A DNA stretch of 64,000 bases, taken from contig JAICSH010000001.1 of assembly GCA_025936995.1 (NCBI GenBank), positions 1 to 64,000 of the forward strand, in the 5' to 3' direction. Of this stretch, positions 51,679 to 61,926 are shown piece after piece. Position 1 is the first letter of the stretch. Each line of letters begins with the position of its first letter. The notes below the pieces were generated by a model, which worked only from the letters and a program-made list of their open reading frames with translations, was not told the DNA's origin and made no database searches. A program made the position numbers and the translations under genes. The stretch is from Thermoleophilia bacterium (GTDB lineage Bacteria > Actinomycetota > Thermoleophilia > Gaiellales > Gaiellaceae).

Positions 51679-54339
51679 TCAGCCGGCAACGGCGTCCGCG
51701 GCTACGGGTCGCTGCGCCCTGGCCTCGGCGGGGGAGGGGCGCCCGTAGAGAAAGCCCTGGCCGTACTCGATTCCCCGCCCACCGAGAATGCGGATCGTCG
51801 CCGGTCTCTCGATGCCCTCGGCGATCACCTTCATGGAGAGCGCATGCGCGGTGTTGACGATGCCGTCGAGAATCGCGCCGCTGACCGGGTCCGAGTTGAC
51901 CTCGTCGACGAAGCCGGCGTCGACCTTGAGGAAGTGGGCCGGCAAACGGCGTAGGTGCTCGAACGAGGAGAAGCCGGTGCCGAAGTCGTCGATCGCGACC
52001 AGGCACCCGAGCTCCCTGAGCACGGTGAGGCGCCTCTGCGCGCGGTCGTAGTCGTGCAGCGGCGCGCGCTCGGTGATCTCGATGCCGAGGCGGCCGGCGA
52101 GGTGCCGCCGCGTGGTGAACGTGTGCTCGAGCCGGTCGAGCAGCGGATCGCTGTGGAAGCTCTTGGTGTCGAGGTTGACGAAGATCCGCAGCTCGGGGTC
52201 GGCTTCGAGCAGCGCGACCGCTCGGTCGATCGCGTTCTGGTCGATCTGGTCGATGACCCCGAGGTCGGCGGCACCGGGGAGGAACTCGGCCGGCCCGATG
52301 ATGCGACCGTGGCCGTCGACCATGCGGGTGAGCGCCTCGTGGTACGCGACTCTCCCGACCTGGAGGTCGACGATGGGCTGGAGGTAGATGACGAACCGGT
52401 CCTCCTCGAGCGCATCCTTGATTCGCGTCGACCAGCCCTGCCGTGCCGTGAGCTGCTGGGTCTCCGCGAGCGTGGGTGTCCAGACAGCGGCTCGGTTGCG
52501 GCCCTGCTCCTTCGCCTCGTAGAGCGCCATGTCGGCATGCAGGAGCACGGTCTCCGCGCGCGTGGCGGGATCGCTCCCCGGTCTGACTGCGCCGAGGCCG
52601 ATGCTGAGGGTGACATCCAGAACTGCAGGCGAGCCTTCCAGGGGCAGGCGATAGCCGTGCGCCGCGGTGAGGATGCGTCCGGCGACGTCGACTGCTTCGT
52701 CCGTTCTGGCCCCGCGCAGCAGGAACGCGAACTCGTCCCCGCTGAGGCGGGCGCACACGTCGTTTGGTCGCAGGTTCGCCGCGACGATCCGCGCGAGATC
52801 GCGGAGCACCTGATCGCCGGCGGCATGACCGGCCGTGTCGTTGATCAGCTTGAAGTGGTCGACGTCCGCGATCGCCACGACGAGAGGTGCTCCGGTCAAA
52901 TCGCCGTCGGCGATCGCCTCCTCCAGGCAGACGGAGAACCGCCGTCTGTTCACGAGCCCGGTGAGAGGGTCGTGGTCGGCGAGATACCGGACCTCGTCCT
53001 CGCGCATGCGCTGGTCGGTCACGTCGTCGAACACGGCGATCACTGCATCGGGGGCGCCCGGCGTTCCGACTGGTGCCGTGGAGACCTGGACCCGCCGGGG
53101 AGTTCCATCCTGCCGCCGGAGACCGAGCTCGATGTGATCGAGACGCTCTCCGGACAGTGCGCGCCGGCGGATGCCCTCGGCCCGTCTCTCGCCCGCCGCC
53201 GGCGCCAACTGCCAGCGCTTGCCGATCACGTCCGTCGCCCGCCAACCCGACGCGACCTCGGCCGCCTCGTTCCACCGCTGCACTCCGCCGTCCGCGTCGA
53301 ACACCGCGATCGGGAGCGGCGACGCGTCGAGGACGGCCTCCAGGCGGGCGGCTGCGGCTGCAGCTTCCTGGCCGAGGTTGCGCGCGGTGCTGGCCAGGTC
53401 GAAGAACCGGTACACGACGAGCGTCGGGATCAACGCGGCGGCGACGACGAAGAGGACGAGATCGTCCAGGTCGAAGGTGTCGTGGGAGAAGAGGACGACG
53501 ATCGGGATCGTGGCGAGCGCACCGCCGAGGAGCGTCAGGCGCCGGGCGGGCATCACCCGGGACTCGTCGACCTCGATCTCGGTCAGTCGGCGCATGGAAG
53601 GGTGGAGGCCGGCCGCGCCGAGCAGCGCGAAGCTCAGGTAGTAGCTCGCGTTGACCAGGGTGCTCTGGTAACTCGTGGTCTGGAGGAAGCTGCGCCAGAT
53701 CAGGTCGCCGACGAAGCCGAACCCGATCCCGGCCGTGAGCAGTCCGAACGATGGGAGCCGTGCCGCTCCGGTCAGAAGCAGACGCGCCGTGAGCGCCAGC
53801 AGGAGGAGATCGATCGTGGGGAATGCTCCGACGAGGATCCGGCTGGAGATCGACAGGCCGGTCGCGTCGAACTGGCGGTTGAAGACGAGAAACCACAGCA
53901 GCAGGAACGAGCCGAGGAATACCGGTGCCGCATCGACGATGAGCATCCGGCCCGCCCAGCGCGAGTGTCGCGGGTGGCTGCCGAGCCAGGTCAGCGCGAC
54001 GGCCAGCGTGAGCCCGCCCGCGAGGTAGAGCCAGTCTCCGACGGAGAAGAGGGCGAGCGTCCCGCCGGCCGCATCTGCCTCGTAGGCGATGTCGCCACAG
54101 CCGAACAACAGCACGGCGAGCGCGAGGAGCAACCATGGCCGCAACGAGGTCGGCCGGTGGTAGACGATTCCAGCGACGATCGCAGCGGCAGCTCCGACGC
54201 TCGCGACGTCGTGGAGCAGGGAAGCCGCTACGCCGTGGTGCAGCACGAGCGCGACGCCGCCCGCCGTGAGGTCGGCCACGACAAACACGCCCGTCACCAG
54301 GTACGGGGTACGCGCAGAGGTCCGAGGCCGCAACCACAT
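51679..54339 (-). CDS. Membrane-bound GGDEF-EAL cyclic-di-GMP protein
   Basis: An 886-residue protein: eight or nine membrane segments (about 1-285), a PAS domain (about 320-430), a diguanylate cyclase domain with DHDPLTGLVNRRRF and ARLSGDEFAFLL (SGDEF in place of GGDEF, a variant found in active enzymes), and a phosphodiesterase domain with YHEALTRMVDG, DDFGTGFSSFEHLRRL and KVDAGFV. Both domains keep most catalytic residues, so it may make or break c-di-GMP or do one under control of the other. ATG 54339 has GAGGG 8 bases upstream. Two direct repeats lie further upstream. Confidence 0.92.
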   Translation of the reverse strand: MWLRPRTSARTPYLVTGVFVVADLTAGGVALVLHHGVAASLLHDVASVGAAAAIVAGIVYHRPTSLRPWLLLALAVLLFGCGDIAYEADAAGGTLALFSVGDWLYLAGGLTLAVALTWLGSHPRHSRWAGRMLIVDAAPVFLGSFLLLWFLVFNRQFDATGLSISSRILVGAFPTIDLLLLALTARLLLTGAARLPSFGLLTAGIGFGFVGDLIWRSFLQTTSYQSTLVNASYYLSFALLGAAGLHPSMRRLTEIEVDESRVMPARRLTLLGGALATIPIVVLFSHDTFDLDDLVLFVVAAALIPTLVVYRFFDLASTARNLGQEAAAAAARLEAVLDASPLPIAVFDADGGVQRWNEAAEVASGWRATDVIGKRWQLAPAAGERRAEGIRRRALSGERLDHIELGLRRQDGTPRRVQVSTAPVGTPGAPDAVIAVFDDVTDQRMREDEVRYLADHDPLTGLVNRRRFSVCLEEAIADGDLTGAPLVVAIADVDHFKLINDTAGHAAGDQVLRDLARIVAANLRPNDVCARLSGDEFAFLLRGARTDEAVDVAGRILTAAHGYRLPLEGSPAVLDVTLSIGLGAVRPGSDPATRAETVLLHADMALYEAKEQGRNRAAVWTPTLAETQQLTARQGWSTRIKDALEEDRFVIYLQPIVDLQVGRVAYHEALTRMVDGHGRIIGPAEFLPGAADLGVIDQIDQNAIDRAVALLEADPELRIFVNLDTKSFHSDPLLDRLEHTFTTRRHLAGRLGIEITERAPLHDYDRAQRRLTVLRELGCLVAIDDFGTGFSSFEHLRRLPAHFLKVDAGFVDEVNSDPVSGAILDGIVNTAHALSMKVIAEGIERPATIRILGGRGIEYGQGFLYGRPSPAEARAQRPVAADAVAG

Positions 54340-54391
54340 GTGTCGCACCCTCGTCGTTGAAAGCCGAGCGGCATACCGCAAGACACCGCCG

Positions 54392-54429
54392 TGACCTTCA
54401 GTAGGAACCCGCACCTGACTTTCAGCAGG
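54392..54429. repeat. Direct repeat upstream of the GGDEF-EAL gene
   Basis: TGACCTTCAGTAGG (54392-54405) and TGACTTTCAGCAGG (54416-54429) differ at two of 14 positions and are 24 bases apart, a little over two helical turns. The position, 53-90 bases upstream of the gene start, is suitable for an operator. Confidence 0.4.
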
Positions 54430-54447: not shown

Positions 54448-56759
54448 TCACGGAGCCACGACCGCCTCGGGCGGCCAGCGCCATTCCGACACCTCGGGCG
54501 CGTCTTCACCATGCTCGCGGGCGTACGCGTGCGCCCGCAGCCGTGCGTCCTCCATCTCCTGGCGCAGGTGGCCGGCGCGGTCGACGAGTCCCGGCACGCG
54601 GTCGATCACGTCGATGACCAGGTGATAGCGGTCGAGATCGTTGAGCATGACCATGTCGAACGGGGTCGTGGTCGTGCCCTCCTCCTTGTAGCCGCGGACG
54701 TGAAGGTTCGCGTGGTTCGTGCGCCGGTAGGTGAGGCGATGGATGAGCCATGGGTAGCCGTGGTAGGCGAAGACGACGGGCCGGCTGGACGTGAACAGAG
54801 AGTCGAACTCGTGATCGGGGAGCCCGTGCGGATGCTCGAGCTCCGGTTGCAGCCGCATCAGGTCGACCACGTTCACGACCCGGACCTTGAGCTCGGGCAG
54901 CCGCTCGCGGAGGATTGCCGCCGCGGCGAGCGTCTCGAGCGTCGGCACGTCCCCGCAGCAGGCGAGCACGACGTCGGGCTCGCCGCTTGCGTCGTTGGAG
55001 GCCCAATCCCAGATCCCGACCCCACGCGTGCAATGCAGGATCGCCTCGTCCATCGGCAGGAACTGCAGCGCGGGTTGCTTGCCCGCGACGATCACGTTCA
55101 CGTAGTGGCGGCTGCGCAGGCAGTGGTCGGCGACGGAGAGGAGGCAGTTTGCGTCGGGCGGGAGGTAGACGCGGATGATCTCGGCCCTCTTGTTCACGAC
55201 GTGGTCGATGAAGCCGGGATCCTGATGCGAGAAGCCGTTGTGGTCCTGCCGCCAGACGTGCGAGCTGAGGAGATAGTTGAGCGAGGCGAGCGGGCGCCGC
55301 CACGGGATCCCGCGGGTGACCTTCAACCACTTCGCGTGCTGGTTGAACATCGAGTCGACGATGTGGATGAATGCCTCGTAGCAGTTGAAGAGCCCGTGGC
55401 GGCCGGTGAGGAGGTAACCCTCGAGCCAGCCCTGGCACTGGTGCTCCGACAGCATCTCGACGACCCGGCCGGTCGGTGCGAGGTGCTCGTCGACGGGTTC
55501 GATGCGGGCGTCCCACTGCTTGTCCGTCACCTCGTAGACGGCGTCGAGCCGGTTCGACGCGGTCTCGTCGGGGCCGAAGATACGGAAGTTCTCGGGGTTC
55601 GAGCGCACCACCTGCGTCAGCCACTGCGCGAGGACGCGTGTCGCCTCCGCGGTCACGGTTCCAGGCTCGTCGACCGGAACGGCGAAGCGGCGAAAGTCCG
55701 GTAGCTCGAGGTCGCGCAGCACGAGGCCGCCGTTCGTCTTCGGGTTTCCGCTCATGCGGCGCTCGCCCCGCGGCGCGAGGCCGGCGAGCGTCTCCTTCAG
55801 CGCGCCGTCTGCATCGAAGAGCTCCTCCGGCCGGTAGCTGCGCATCCACTCTTCGAGCTGACGGAGGTGCTCTGCGTTCGTCCGCACCTGGGCGAGAGGA
55901 ACCTGATGCGCGCGCCACGTCCCTTCGACCGGCAGTCCGTCCACTTCCCGCGGGCCGGTCCAGCCCTTCGGAGAGCGGAAGACGATCATCGCCCGCCGAT
56001 CGTCGAGCGCTCGGTCGAGGAGCTCCGTGAACCGGCGGTGCGTGTCGAGATGGTCGTCGCCCGTGTCGAAGAAGAGCGGTTCGTACCCATAGCCGCGCAG
56101 AAGGGAGGCGAGCTCCTCTTCGGGAATGCGCGCGAGCACCGTGGGGTTCGCGATCTTGTAGCCGTTGAGGTGGAGGATGGGGAGGACGCGGCCGTCCCGT
56201 TCGCGGTCCGAGAACTTGTTCGAGTGCCAGCTCGTTGCGAGCGGGCCCGTCTCCGCTTCGCCGTCTCCGACGACGCAGGCGACCGTCAGGCCGGGATCGT
56301 CGAAGGCCGCACCGTACGCGTGAGAAGGGCGTAGCCGAGCTCGCCGCCTTCATGGATCGAGCCCGGAGTCTCGGGTGCGGCGTGGCTCGGGATCCCGCCG
56401 GGGAACGAGAATTGTCGGAAGAGCGCCTGCAGTCCGCTCTCGTCACCCGTGATGTGCGGGTAGAGCTCGGTGTACGTCCCCTCGAGGTACGAGTGCGCGA
56501 CGACCGCCGGTCCGCCGTGTCCGGGGCCACAGACGAAGATCGCATCGAGGTCGCGCTCGCGGATGGCGCGGTTGAGGTGCGTGTAGAGGAAGTTCAGGCC
56601 CGGAGTCGTTCCCCAGTGTCCGAGCAGCCTCGGCTTCACGTGCTCCGGCCGCAGCGGCTCGCGGAGCAGGGGGTTGTCGAGCAGGTAGATCTGCCCCACC
56701 GAGAGGTAGTTCGCAGCCCGCCAGTACGCGTCGAGCGCGCGTAGCTCGTCATCGGTCAC
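54448..56759 (-). CDS. xfp: Phosphoketolase, with apparent frameshift
   Basis: Thiamine-diphosphate enzyme that splits xylulose-5-phosphate (or fructose-6-phosphate) with phosphate into acetyl phosphate. The N-terminal piece (56759-56286) has [35 protein letters not shown] and EGGELGYAL. One missing base near 56321-56330 then breaks the frame; restoring it gives [13 protein letters not shown] and the TPP motif GDGEAETGP before the second open frame (from 56139). That part has [20 protein letters not shown] and [18 protein letters not shown]. The corrected length of about 770 residues is normal. GTG 56759 has AAGGAG upstream. Unless the base loss is an assembly error the gene is inactive. Confidence 0.9.
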
Positions 56760-58261: not shown

Positions 58262-58693
58262 CTACCAGACGACGACCGAGACTCCGCCGACCTCGTCGAG
58301 AGCGACGGTGTTCGCGCCCGGGGCGATCACGATGCGGTCGGTGGTTCCGGCTGCGGGCAGCGTCCCGGTGACCGGCGAGCCGACCGCGTCGTCGGCGCGG
58401 TCGACGAACGTCACGGAGATGTTCTTGCCCAGGCAGGCCGAGGGGATGTCCGACAGGTCGATGCCGTCGATCGCGTAACCGGAGACGGCTCCGTAGAAGC
58501 TTGTCGAGTAGCTCATGGACATTCCGGTGCCGCAGGCCGTGACCAGCTCGCTGCCGGCTCCGAGACCTGCGGAGGCGGTGCCGAGCGACGCCGCAAAGCC
58601 CTGAATCGCGACGAAGACAACGACGGCCGCGAGGGCAGCGACGCCGAGTCGTGTCCTCGACGCGGCCCTGCGGAACCACGTCTGGACTCTCAT
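58262..58693 (-). CDS. Small secreted protein of the SipW-like locus
   Basis: A 143-residue exported protein. The N terminus MRVQTWFRRAASRTRLG is basic and a hydrophobic helix (about 17-37) follows, ending FAASLGTASAGLGAG. The mature part has STSFYGAVSGYAIDGIDLSD, close to the SGYTVSSIHYGLN segment of the protein at 60717-61112, so the two are distant relatives. The beta-rich composition and two cysteines (near 54 and 87) suit a camelysin/TasA-type fold. ATGA overlap with the upstream gene shows it is the last member of the operon. Confidence 0.75.
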   Translation of the reverse strand: MRVQTWFRRAASRTRLGVAALAAVVVFVAIQGFAASLGTASAGLGAGSELVTACGTGMSMSYSTSFYGAVSGYAIDGIDLSDIPSACLGKNISVTFVDRADDAVGSPVTGTLPAAGTTDRIVIAPGANTVALDEVGGVSVVVW

Positions 58694-60164
58694 GACGCCG
58701 TGCCCGTCGCTTCGCACCCGCTGTACGCGTTCACGGCTCCGGGGGAGCCGATGCAGACGTCGCCGGAGCCGGCGCCGGCCTGCAGCGTGTTCGTCGTTCC
58801 CGCGCCGCCGCCGGCGACGATGCAGTCGTTCCCGTTGCCGCCGCTGAGGGTTTGCGACCCTGCCGCGTTGCGCCCGAGAATCAGATCGTTCTGCGAGGTG
58901 CCGGAGTTCGAGGAGGTCGTCGCGACGACGAGGTTGGCCGGATTGACGCCGGCGCAGAGCGCCGGGGCGATTTGCGTGAGCGTTCTGGCGAACGAGGATC
59001 GTCCCGCATACGAGGCAGGCACGACGTTGCCGGCCGTGAACGTCGCCGCCGAGTACGGGGCCGGCTCGGCGGGCTCCGGGAGCTTCGTCAGCTCGAAGCG
59101 GTAGAGGCGCGGCGGGTCGTCGACGACGAAGACGGTGACGTTCCCGTTCACGTGGCGCAGGATCGGGCGCTCGGCCTGGCGCGCGATCCCGGTGAGGCTC
59201 TCGAGATCCGGGACCGGCGTGACGGCGGTGTTCGGCGGAGCGGGAAGGTCGGAGACGTCGAACATGTCGCGCCCGTAGCGGTGGGCGATCCGCCGTTCCG
59301 TCGACCAGATCTGCCGCCGACGGCGGAATTGGCCGGTGTCCACGGCCCATGCCCCTCCGAGGATGAGCATCGCGCTCAGGATCTCGAGTGCCGCACCGGT
59401 GAACCGCGATCGTCCGACAGCCACGGTGTTGGTCACGCTGCGCGGCAACGTCCCCGTCTTCGACGGTGGAGCGCGGCGAGCAAGACCGACGCCGCGGAGG
59501 GCGCCGCATACGTTGCTCCCGGGGCCATGGCAGGCGCCGAGACGTTCAGCTTCAAGACGGCGTTGTTCGCCGTGAAGGGAAGCGTGGGCGTGAAGTCCTG
59601 GGACACGTGCTTCCCGGCGACGGTGCCGGTGATGTGGACGAGCGGATCGAGCTCGAGCGCGTACGAGGCGCCGGGCGTGCCTGCGCTCGCCGCGAGCGCG
59701 TCGAGCTGCTCGGTGAGGTCGTGGAGGTCGACCTGCACGCTGGCGGTTGCGTGGTCGCCGGCGAACGACTGAGGGGCCTTGAGCCGGTAGCGGTGATGCC
59801 ACGCTGTGGACTCGTCCGCGAGGACGCTACGGAGGACGATCGTGCCTCGGACGTGGTGCGGGAGGCTCGACCGGAACCGGTAGTCGAAGGACAGCGTCAG
59901 GCTGCGGATCTCGGAGAGGAAGATCGGCGCTCCGGTCTGCACGATCCCGGCCGGATAGGCCGCGCTCGAGGCGGCGTTCGCGTGCCCCACGTACGAGAAG
60001 GCTCCCGTGCTCTCATAGCTTCTGACCTGAACGGTTTTCGTCCCGGGCTGCGCCAACCCCGTCACGACCGCGACGGGGCCGACGACCAGCGCGACGAGCC
60101 CGGCGAGCGAAAGCAGCGAACGCCGTGGGCGGCGGAGCCGGGCGAGCAGCGTTGAGCTCAGCAT
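58690..60164 (-). CDS. DUF5305-like membrane protein fused to a secreted-type tail, with apparent frameshift
   Basis: ATG 60164 follows GGGAGGAAA. A membrane helix (residues 16-36), an exported beta-rich domain (SLTLSFDYRFRSSLP, HGTIVLRS-type strands, ELDPLVHITGTVAGKH), then a break: the frame must shift by one base between about 59510 and 59460 to continue into SKTGTLPRSVTNTVAVG, a second membrane helix (LEILSAMLILGGAWA) and a cytoplasmic domain (RIAHRYGRDMFDV, ERPILRHVNGN, LYRFELTKL). The layout is that of DUF5305. After LTKLPEPAEP it runs on into TFTAGNVVPASYAG and a glycine-rich GGNGNDCIVAGGG tail, which looks like the mature part of another secreted protein. Confidence 0.6.
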
Positions 60165-60689
60165 GGGTTTCCTCCCGCGAGCGCGACCTGATCCGCCGCG
60201 CCGTCTCCGGCGACGGAGAGCGCGGGGGACAGCCCTGGCTCCGACGAGGAGTAGGAGCAGCGTCCCGGCGGCGGCGACGAGCGCGGAGTGCCGCGGCTTG
60301 CCGATCCAGCTGAGGGCGCGTCCGGCCTTGGGCACGCGGAACCAGAGCCTGCCGAGCAGGTCACCACGCGTGGCGTAGCCGGCGTCGACGAAGTCGTTGT
60401 TGTCGCCCTTGAAGAAGTAGTGGCCGTGCTGGGCGACGATGATCCGGTGGAGGACGGCGCGATGGAAGACGGGGCTCTCATAGAGGACGACCTGACCGAC
60501 CTTGTACGAGGGGGCGCGCCGGACGACGGCCAGGTCGCCGGCGTGGAAGAGCGGCTCCATGCTCGTCCCCACCGTGGCCGAGTAGAGCGTGGAGCCGCCG
60601 AGCTGCGGGGGCGCCAGGAAGAACCAGGCAGCAGCGAGGTCGAGGAGGAGCGCCGTGCGCAGCGCACGTCCTCGGATGCTCCGGTTCAC
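60165..60689 (-). CDS. SipW-like signal peptidase I (S26B type)
   Basis: About 175 residues. An N-terminal membrane helix (12-28), the catalytic serine in VGTSMEPLFHAGDLAVV (near residue 43), RAVLHRIIVAQ with His where bacterial enzymes have Lys, and YFFKGDNNDFVDAGY. His at the second site marks the archaeal/eukaryotic/SipW subgroup, which processes special signal peptides such as those of TasA and camelysin. A second membrane helix (about 135-153) is followed by a very basic tail. There is no stop: the frame continues through the ATG of the next gene to 59433, so the two are either fused or a stop has been lost. Confidence 0.85.
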
Positions 60690-60716
60690 CTCGCGCCCCC
60701 ATCTTCGATGCGTTGG

Positions 60717-61112
60717 TTACTGCGCCGCGACGACCGTGACCGTGGACAGCTTGTCCGTGGTCAGCTGCGGCGACGTCGTCGCACAGGTGACCGTGGTCCC
60801 GGGAGCGTCGGTGGAGCAGGTGTAGTTGTTCGGGCCGCCGGTGGTGAGCGCGGCCTGCACGATCACCTTCCCGCTGCCGGTGCTCGGCACTGCCGGGCTG
60901 ATCGAGAACGTCAGCGAGTCGATGTTGTTCGGTGTCGTGGAGTTCAGCCCGTAGTGGATGCTCGAGACCGTGTAGCCGGACACGGTGCCGCTGCCGGAGC
61001 CGGCGTTCGTGGCCGGGACCGTGTTCGCGGCGGTGAAGGCGTACGCACCGCCGGCCACGACGGCTGCGACAACGGCCACGAGGACGATCCGAAGGGGTGA
61101 GAAGAACCGCAT
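60717..61112 (-). CDS. Camelysin/TasA-like secreted protein
   Basis: A 131-residue exported protein. The N terminus MRFFSPLRIVLVAVVAA leads into GGAYAFTAANTVPATNAGSG, the typical SipW-dependent signal and maturation region (A-x-A-F-T-x-x-N). The mature part is beta-rich with SGYTVSSIHYGLNSTTP, IDSLTFSISPAVP and two cysteines (TCSTDAPGTTVTC). Proteins like this are structural fibre or surface components in organisms with SipW peptidases. AAGGAGAAAG before ATG 61112 is a strong ribosome site. It is first in the operon that includes the peptidase. Confidence 0.85.
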   Translation of the reverse strand: MRFFSPLRIVLVAVVAAVVAGGAYAFTAANTVPATNAGSGSGTVSGYTVSSIHYGLNSTTPNNIDSLTFSISPAVPSTGSGKVIVQAALTTGGPNNYTCSTDAPGTTVTCATTSPQLTTDKLSTVTVVAAQ

Positions 61113-61282
61113 TGAGCTTTCTCCTTGGGTTAGGCGCAGGGGTATCTGTCTCGTTTTCGGTGGGTTCGGGGCACCAGGCTTCCGGGGTTCTGCGGTTCGG
61201 AGGGGAGTAGTTCGTACCGAGGCGGTTCCACCAAAGTGGTGAGTCAGGCGTGAGAGTGCGCGTCTTCGGGTACTGAACGCGC

Positions 61283-61462
61283 ATGCCCTGGATGGTCATG
61301 AAGTCGTCGTTCCGCGAGGCGGAGCGACTTCAGCAGGAGGAGCCCGAGCGCTTCGACGCGATCGTGTCCGAGGGGGTCGTGGCCGAGCCGGACCTGGCGA
61401 ACCGCGATGCGCTGAGCCTCGTGACGCTGTACCTCTACGACCAGCGCGTCAACAGCGCCTAA
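61283..61462 (+). CDS. Small 59-residue protein
   Basis: ATG 61283 to TAA 61460-61462. The frame encodes MPWMVMKSSFREAERL and an acidic middle (QQEEPERFDAIVSEG) and ends in LYLYDQRVNSA. Codon third positions are mostly G or C, as in the true genes here, and TACTGA lies 6 bases upstream in the leaderless position. It faces the secreted-protein gene at 61477-61926 with 14 bases between stops. Its function is unknown; it is soluble and helical. Confidence 0.5.
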   Translation: MPWMVMKSSFREAERLQQEEPERFDAIVSEGVVAEPDLANRDALSLVTLYLYDQRVNSA

Positions 61463-61476
61463 GCCCGTCCGTCAGG

Positions 61477-61926
61477 TCAGAACGAGAGCGTCCAGGCGGC
61501 GCTCGCCGACACCTCGAAGGTGTAGGTGCCCGGCGGGACGAAGCTCGTGCCGCTCGTCGTGCTGTCGCCGTTGTCGAACTCGATGAAATTCTCGTCGTTC
61601 GGGGTCGAGGAGACCAAGAAGTCGTTGAAGCCGTCGGAGTCCGGCTGCGACGTCCACGTCACCGTGACGCCGTGGGAGAGCGTCATCGGGGCGAGGGTCT
61701 CGTCGCCGTTGCCGCTGAACGTCTGGCCGACCGGGGACGGCGCGATCGTGACCATGACCGTGCGCGTGGTGGTGCGGGGCTTGACGGCGCGGGCGCAGAC
61801 CTTCGTCCCGTGCACCTTCGTGCAGTGCCCCGGCCGGAGGAAGATCGTGTGGAGCGCATAGGCGCTCGCGCCGCCCGCGGCAGCGAGTGCCAGCACCGCC
61901 GCGACCACGAGAGCACGCTTCCGCAC
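61477..61926 (-). CDS. Secreted protein of the SipW-like locus
   Basis: A 149-residue exported protein. Signal peptide MRKRALVVAAVLALAAAGG with cleavage near ASA-YA, then a basic segment with two cysteines (GHCTKVHGTKVCARAV), a Thr-rich linker and a beta-sandwich-like domain (TWTSQPDSDGFNDFLVSS, FVPPGTYTFEVSAS). The start is GTG 61926. It reads in the same direction as the camelysin-like gene but is separated from it by the small gene, so it is probably a separate transcript. No catalytic motif; adhesion or surface role is a guess. Confidence 0.7.
   Translation of the reverse strand: MRKRALVVAAVLALAAAGGASAYALHTIFLRPGHCTKVHGTKVCARAVKPRTTTRTVMVTIAPSPVGQTFSGNGDETLAPMTLSHGVTVTWTSQPDSDGFNDFLVSSTPNDENFIEFDNGDSTTSGTSFVPPGTYTFEVSASAAWTLSF

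Follow-up and report, generated by a model that had tools for sequence, protein, structure and literature searches.

A putative SipW-like secretion module with a signal peptidase fused to DUF5305 in a Thermoleophilia bacterium and its relatives

The window analysed here is a stretch of 64,000 nucleotides from a contig of a soil-dwelling member of the Thermoleophilia (Actinomycetota), whose genome is a 1.85-Mb draft, 70% complete. Its minus strand carries, from 61112 to 58262, a module consisting of the gene for an exported protein (A), an ORF for a signal peptidase joined to DUF5305, an ORF in a second frame for DUF5305 and an RTX-like protein (B), and the gene for a further exported protein (C). 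The features are the following:

60717..61112 (-): A, putative substrate, exported protein of 131 aa (ORF translation; homologue 5' of peptidase-DUF5305 in relatives)
60240..60689 (-): S26B (ER-type) signal peptidase domain (TIGR02228 above cut-off)
59460..60122 (-): transmembrane segment (TM) and extracytoplasmic part of DUF5305 (PF17231 positions 1-92)
59450..59475 (-): 1-nt frameshift inside DUF5305, near 59459 (relative to sister species G011)
59092..59457 (-): C-terminal part of DUF5305, TM and cytoplasmic domain (PF17231 positions 95-210)
59058..59092 (-): junction left by an in-frame deletion of net 90 nt (alignment with G011)
58693..59057 (-): B, putative substrate in cis, RTX-like (in frame with DUF5305)
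58262..58693 (-): C, putative substrate, exported protein of 143 aa (ORF translation)

A is preceded by a strong ribosome site (AAGGAG), the GTG start of the peptidase ORF lies 27 nt past A, and the start of C overlaps the stop of the preceding ORF (ATGA). The peptidase and the beginning of DUF5305 share, in frame, an ORF of 418 aa (59433-60689), and the ORF in the second frame (59802-58690) encodes the C-terminal half of DUF5305 followed by B. The original prediction had described several small exported proteins at this site, of which the 131-aa and 143-aa proteins belong to the module. The third, an exported protein of 149 aa that belongs to no known family (61477-61926, minus strand), has no homologue at any related locus and lies 364 nt upstream, and is therefore probably not a module member. 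A PAS-GGDEF-EAL protein is encoded 4 kb from the module (51679-54414, minus strand).

The peptidase (60689-60240) scored 56.8 bits against TIGR02228, above the cut-off of 51.85, which places it in the S26B family as had been predicted. Its active site is of the Ser-His and not the Ser-Lys kind, with the serine in GTSMEP and the histidine in VLHRI, both invariant in a sequence comparison of 62 fused homologues, and the predicted activity is that of a Ser-His S26B enzyme. The clustering of this peptidase with a DUF5305 protein was likewise found, but not as the two separate genes originally proposed. PF17231 matched the window in two halves with the frameshift between them, at 18.8 and 25 bits against a cut-off of 29, and since positions 1-92 and 95-210 of the model sit in consecutive frames, the two supposed genes are one gene, broken by that frameshift. 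The cut-off was exceeded in three relatives (L001, L002 and L035), and peptidase and DUF5305 form a single ORF of about 550-640 aa in relatives.

A scan of named genomes yielded 80 loci, from Thermoleophilia, Geodermatophilaceae, Micromonosporaceae and Anaerolineae genomes and from genomes labelled Acidimicrobiia or Dormibacterota. Both domains were present at 79 loci, and they were fused in 68 of these 79 and encoded by overlapping neighbours in the remaining 11, in Actinomycetota and Chloroflexota. The literature searched made no mention of DUF5305 and described no fusion of a signal peptidase with its own substrate; the fused peptidase-DUF5305 architecture is apparently undescribed.

In the AF2 model of a related fusion (L071, 667 aa), the outer domains of peptidase and DUF5305 reached a pLDDT of about 90-98, and the B part was modelled with low confidence. 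Foldseek matched the peptidase model to human SEC11A/C. For the DUF5305 beta-domain the best match was the luminal domain of TMEM106B, followed by other beta-sandwich proteins (E 2.5e-4 and weaker), these matches coming from a table without residue ranges and being assigned to DUF5305 from their fold. Hydropathy together with the positive-inside rule (K/R-rich cytoplasmic loops) gave five TMs for each of the chains L071 and L101 and four above threshold in L045. The predicted topology would place B, as well as the catalytic and the DUF5305 beta-domains, on the same, outer side of the membrane.

An A homologue was found directly 5' of peptidase-DUF5305 in all 71 named loci with room for it, that is, with at least 600 nt upstream of the peptidase, although the A profile had been trained without regard to gene position. 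A cluster conserved across phyla in this way exceeds chance, and an absence of conservation in any relative, which would have told against the original prediction, is thus not what was observed. Within the order of the window the distribution of A is patchy: the profile matched 22 of 129 genomes, and the peptidase was also present in 21 of the 22 (G025 has A and no peptidase match; in G126 a fragment lies at a contig end). At three Thermoleophilia loci (L108, L109 and L110, in G100, G119 and G101), A and B flank a peptidase without DUF5305, and DUF5305 is therefore dispensable in some modules. The window's genome also holds a second, standalone S26B peptidase (L124, G000:C16:5500-13500). Around it are encoded exported proteins of the C type and a CBM96 protein, together with a PAS histidine kinase and a response regulator, and G005, G006 and G007 have comparable loci.

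The in-frame B protein, fused in sister species too, was absent from the original prediction. In Anaerolineae and several Thermoleophilia, B is encoded directly 3' of the peptidase as a separate gene, and its product has an A-like signal and RTX calcium repeats, with PF00353 above cut-off in all six separate B proteins. The B of the window (ATFTAGNVVPASYAG followed by RTX-like repeats, NDLILG...GGNGNDCIVAGGG...DVCIG...GCE) gave only 11.8 bits against a PF00353 cut-off of 23. The B profile counted 18 of 72 loci, L079 being discounted; matches within the DUF5305 ORFs of L016 and L079 were rejected as spurious, the triple fusions having been part of the training set. In the window's genus (G008, G011 and G015), the C-terminus of DUF5305 continues in frame into B, the basic stretch and TM of B included, giving a chain of about 670-700 aa. 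The four fused copies, including that of the window, formed one branch (SH-aLRT 99) in a peptidase tree built from a short alignment and with many forks open; judged from these sequences, the fusion of B arose once. As B is fused in frame together with its own signal and TM segment, the peptidase would carry a likely substrate in cis.

The proposed cleavage site A-F-T-A-A-N-T-V-P is indeed present in the 131-aa protein, whose predicted layout is an n-region, a TM and a cleavage region AYA/FTAANTVP; most A proteins have a TM followed by x-A-[FY]-[TA]-x-x-N-x-V. Profile comparison of A with B found a common part only in about the first 44 residues (probability 95.5%), and hhalign of A with C gave probabilities of 94.6% for the signal region, 17.8% for the mature part and 2.6% for the core. 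The relatedness earlier seen between the SGYTVSSIHYGLN and SGYAIDGIDLSD regions is thus not significant once the signal region is left out. A search for substrate signals with an iterated profile had drifted to C-type proteins (E 1.6e-5), and homology of the mature parts of A and C was rejected after a trimmed comparison traced the drift to the signal region. By these comparisons A, B and C are alike in the signal region alone, with mature parts that appear unrelated; one signal type on unrelated mature parts points to different passengers, as expected of a dedicated peptidase. C is 46-50% identical to proteins beside the standalone peptidase of the genus. None of the NCBIfam models, SipW-linked ones included, gave a meaningful match to A, to C or to 64 homologues of A, and a PDB sequence search with A returned chance nanobody-like matches alone. 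A points to an uncatalogued family of exported proteins.

Several Anaerolineae copies of the module bear additional domains. The chains end in EAL in Ornatilinea, Levilinea and another Anaerolineaceae genome (E 8e-62), and in HD_5 in one Anaerolineales genome (E 4e-39). Chains with EAL or HD-GYP-type ends were seen at L035, L041, L050, L052 and L049. Judged by eye, the EAL domain of Ornatilinea has retained the usual catalytic motifs, and the other EAL domains look degenerate. These fusions suggest a matrix role linked to c-di-GMP.

We consider it rather probable that the operon encodes a module dedicated to the secretion and maturation of proteins of the surface or matrix. A, B and C would be exported via Sec with a special signal-anchor, presumably ignored by the housekeeping peptidase; in A and B this consists of a TM followed by x-A-[FY]-[TA]-x-x-N-x-V-P. 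The committed S26B peptidase would cleave all three. A second pair of TM helices would connect it with the outer beta-domain of DUF5305 and with a small domain in the cytoplasm. DUF5305 is probably a scaffold or chaperone, by analogy with TapA, that keeps the mature proteins at the membrane or presents them there. In the window's genus, the RTX protein B would form the extracytoplasmic end of the peptidase chain, and cleavage in cis or in trans at the FTAANVVP-type site of B would free it. The released products would become surface or matrix material, and the EAL/HD-GYP chain ends of Anaerolineae imply that release there is probably coupled to c-di-GMP. More tentatively, and with less confidence than we place in the module as such, peptidase, DUF5305 scaffold and RTX protein may constitute one self-releasing chain, of which the Anaerolineae form senses or degrades c-di-GMP, so physically coupling the second messenger of biofilm control to matrix export.

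A serious, though less probable, alternative is that the conserved motif is a mere processing signal, and that unrelated surface proteins, calcium-binding or adhesive, are secreted singly and form no polymer. The unrelated mature parts of A, B and C would fit it, as would the second peptidase locus with its C-type and CBM96 proteins; the presence of A at every peptidase-DUF5305 locus with room, however, hints at one fixed partner, and the c-di-GMP domains hint at a matrix.

The original prediction likened the locus to SipW-TasA/camelysin biofilm systems. Bacillus SipW-TasA is the main known case of a dedicated signal peptidase. In the SipW-TasA-TapA operon of Bacillus subtilis, TapA is an accessory protein, and TasA fibres assemble by donor-strand exchange (PMC9674648); SipW is bifunctional in biofilm control according to the title of a reference cited in that paper. 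Were this a true TasA/camelysin fibre locus, A would be the fibre subunit, its mature N-terminus serving as the exchanged donor strand in polymerisation, and DUF5305 would form the base or cap. Some features are in keeping with this: the S26B peptidase adjoins small beta-rich exported proteins, and residues 23-39 of A, its mature N-terminus, are unstructured in the model and contain a conserved motif, as a donor strand could. The mature part of A has only about 106 aa, however, and PF12389 matched none of the window proteins or the 64 A homologues and found nothing in the window's genome, in a search that did match the B. subtilis positive control. The fold comparison for the 60717-61112 protein gave a beta-sandwich with two conserved cysteines, at a moderate pLDDT of 70.7, and without a TasA/camelysin match: Foldseek against the PDB returned no match for A, the best being an antibody domain at E 0.27, and TasA was not in its list. 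As A has no known fold match, a polymer is unsupported. When the profile of A was compared with same-order camelysins, 20 signal-peptide columns aligned and none of the mature part. Membership of the TasA/camelysin family is therefore not supported by these comparisons, and a fibre locus of this kind is unlikely. Within the reach of these tools, A showed no jelly-roll match, an outcome that counts against the original prediction. PF12389 proteins do occur in 9 of 61 related genomes, among them camelysin-family proteins at L130, L132 and L133 in further genomes of the window's order. The one at L132 has a signal peptidase of its own beside it, and these proteins represent a distinct TasA-type system of these bacteria. 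Of the proposed likeness, the dedicated ER-type peptidase, the shared special signal and the conservation remain, and the locus is SipW-like in its predicted working and not TasA/camelysin by membership.

The window copy differs from that of G011, to which it is 75% identical in nucleotides and, in the C-terminal part of DUF5305, 71% in amino acids. The G011 frame is intact where the window has its frameshift, and the net 90-nt loss removes 30 residues, corresponding to the basic stretch and TM of B in G011; with this TM lost, the B of the window would stay intracellular, if the assembly is right. A phosphoketolase gene nearby (54448-56759, minus strand) also carries a 1-nt frameshift, near 56285, at GELGYAL, and the frameshift near 59459 is for this reason probably an assembly indel. 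A programmed frameshift was rejected, there being no apparent slippery site and G011 being intact. Values of dN/dS against G011 were 0.13 for A, 0.25 for the peptidase, 0.40 and 0.26 for the DUF5305 parts and 0.29 for B, thus still 0.26-0.29 beyond the frameshift, and purifying selection acts on all parts. That the copy is a decaying pseudogene, as the frameshift and the lost membrane segment of B might indicate, is improbable given these low ratios in every segment, the assembly errors to which the phosphoketolase gene points, and a deletion that preserves the frame.

As a dedicated secretion and maturation module, the locus would represent a widespread and apparently undescribed SipW-like version, its fused architecture being fixed, in Actinomycetota and Chloroflexota, including the cultured Actinoplanes, Blastococcus, Ornatilinea and Levilinea. 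DUF5305 gains a testable role, the window's genus offers a natural experiment with an enzyme and its likely substrate on one chain, and the EAL/HD-GYP fusions would link c-di-GMP directly to protein maturation.

With SipW-TasA-TapA of Bacillus subtilis the module shares a dedicated signal peptidase encoded beside the small exported proteins that it matures, here putatively. It differs in the fusion of the peptidase to DUF5305, in putative substrates that are not camelysin/TasA by profile or fold, in an RTX putative substrate, fused in cis in the window's genus, and in the EAL/HD-GYP fusions of the Anaerolineae copies. Camelysin (Peptidase_M73, PF12389) resembles A in the signal region (FTSSTSA versus FTAANTV), whereas the mature domains have no match to A. 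RTX proteins (PF00353) have nonapeptide repeats in common with the B homologues, but B has an N-terminal SipW-like signal-anchor, and a C-terminal type I secretion route is not implied. With the archaeal/ER-type signal peptidase I (TIGR02228, S26B; SEC11) the module shares the catalytic domain, SEC11A/C-like in the model of a relative, to which a TM pair and the DUF5305 domain are added, as well as an RTX passenger at the C-terminus in this genus.
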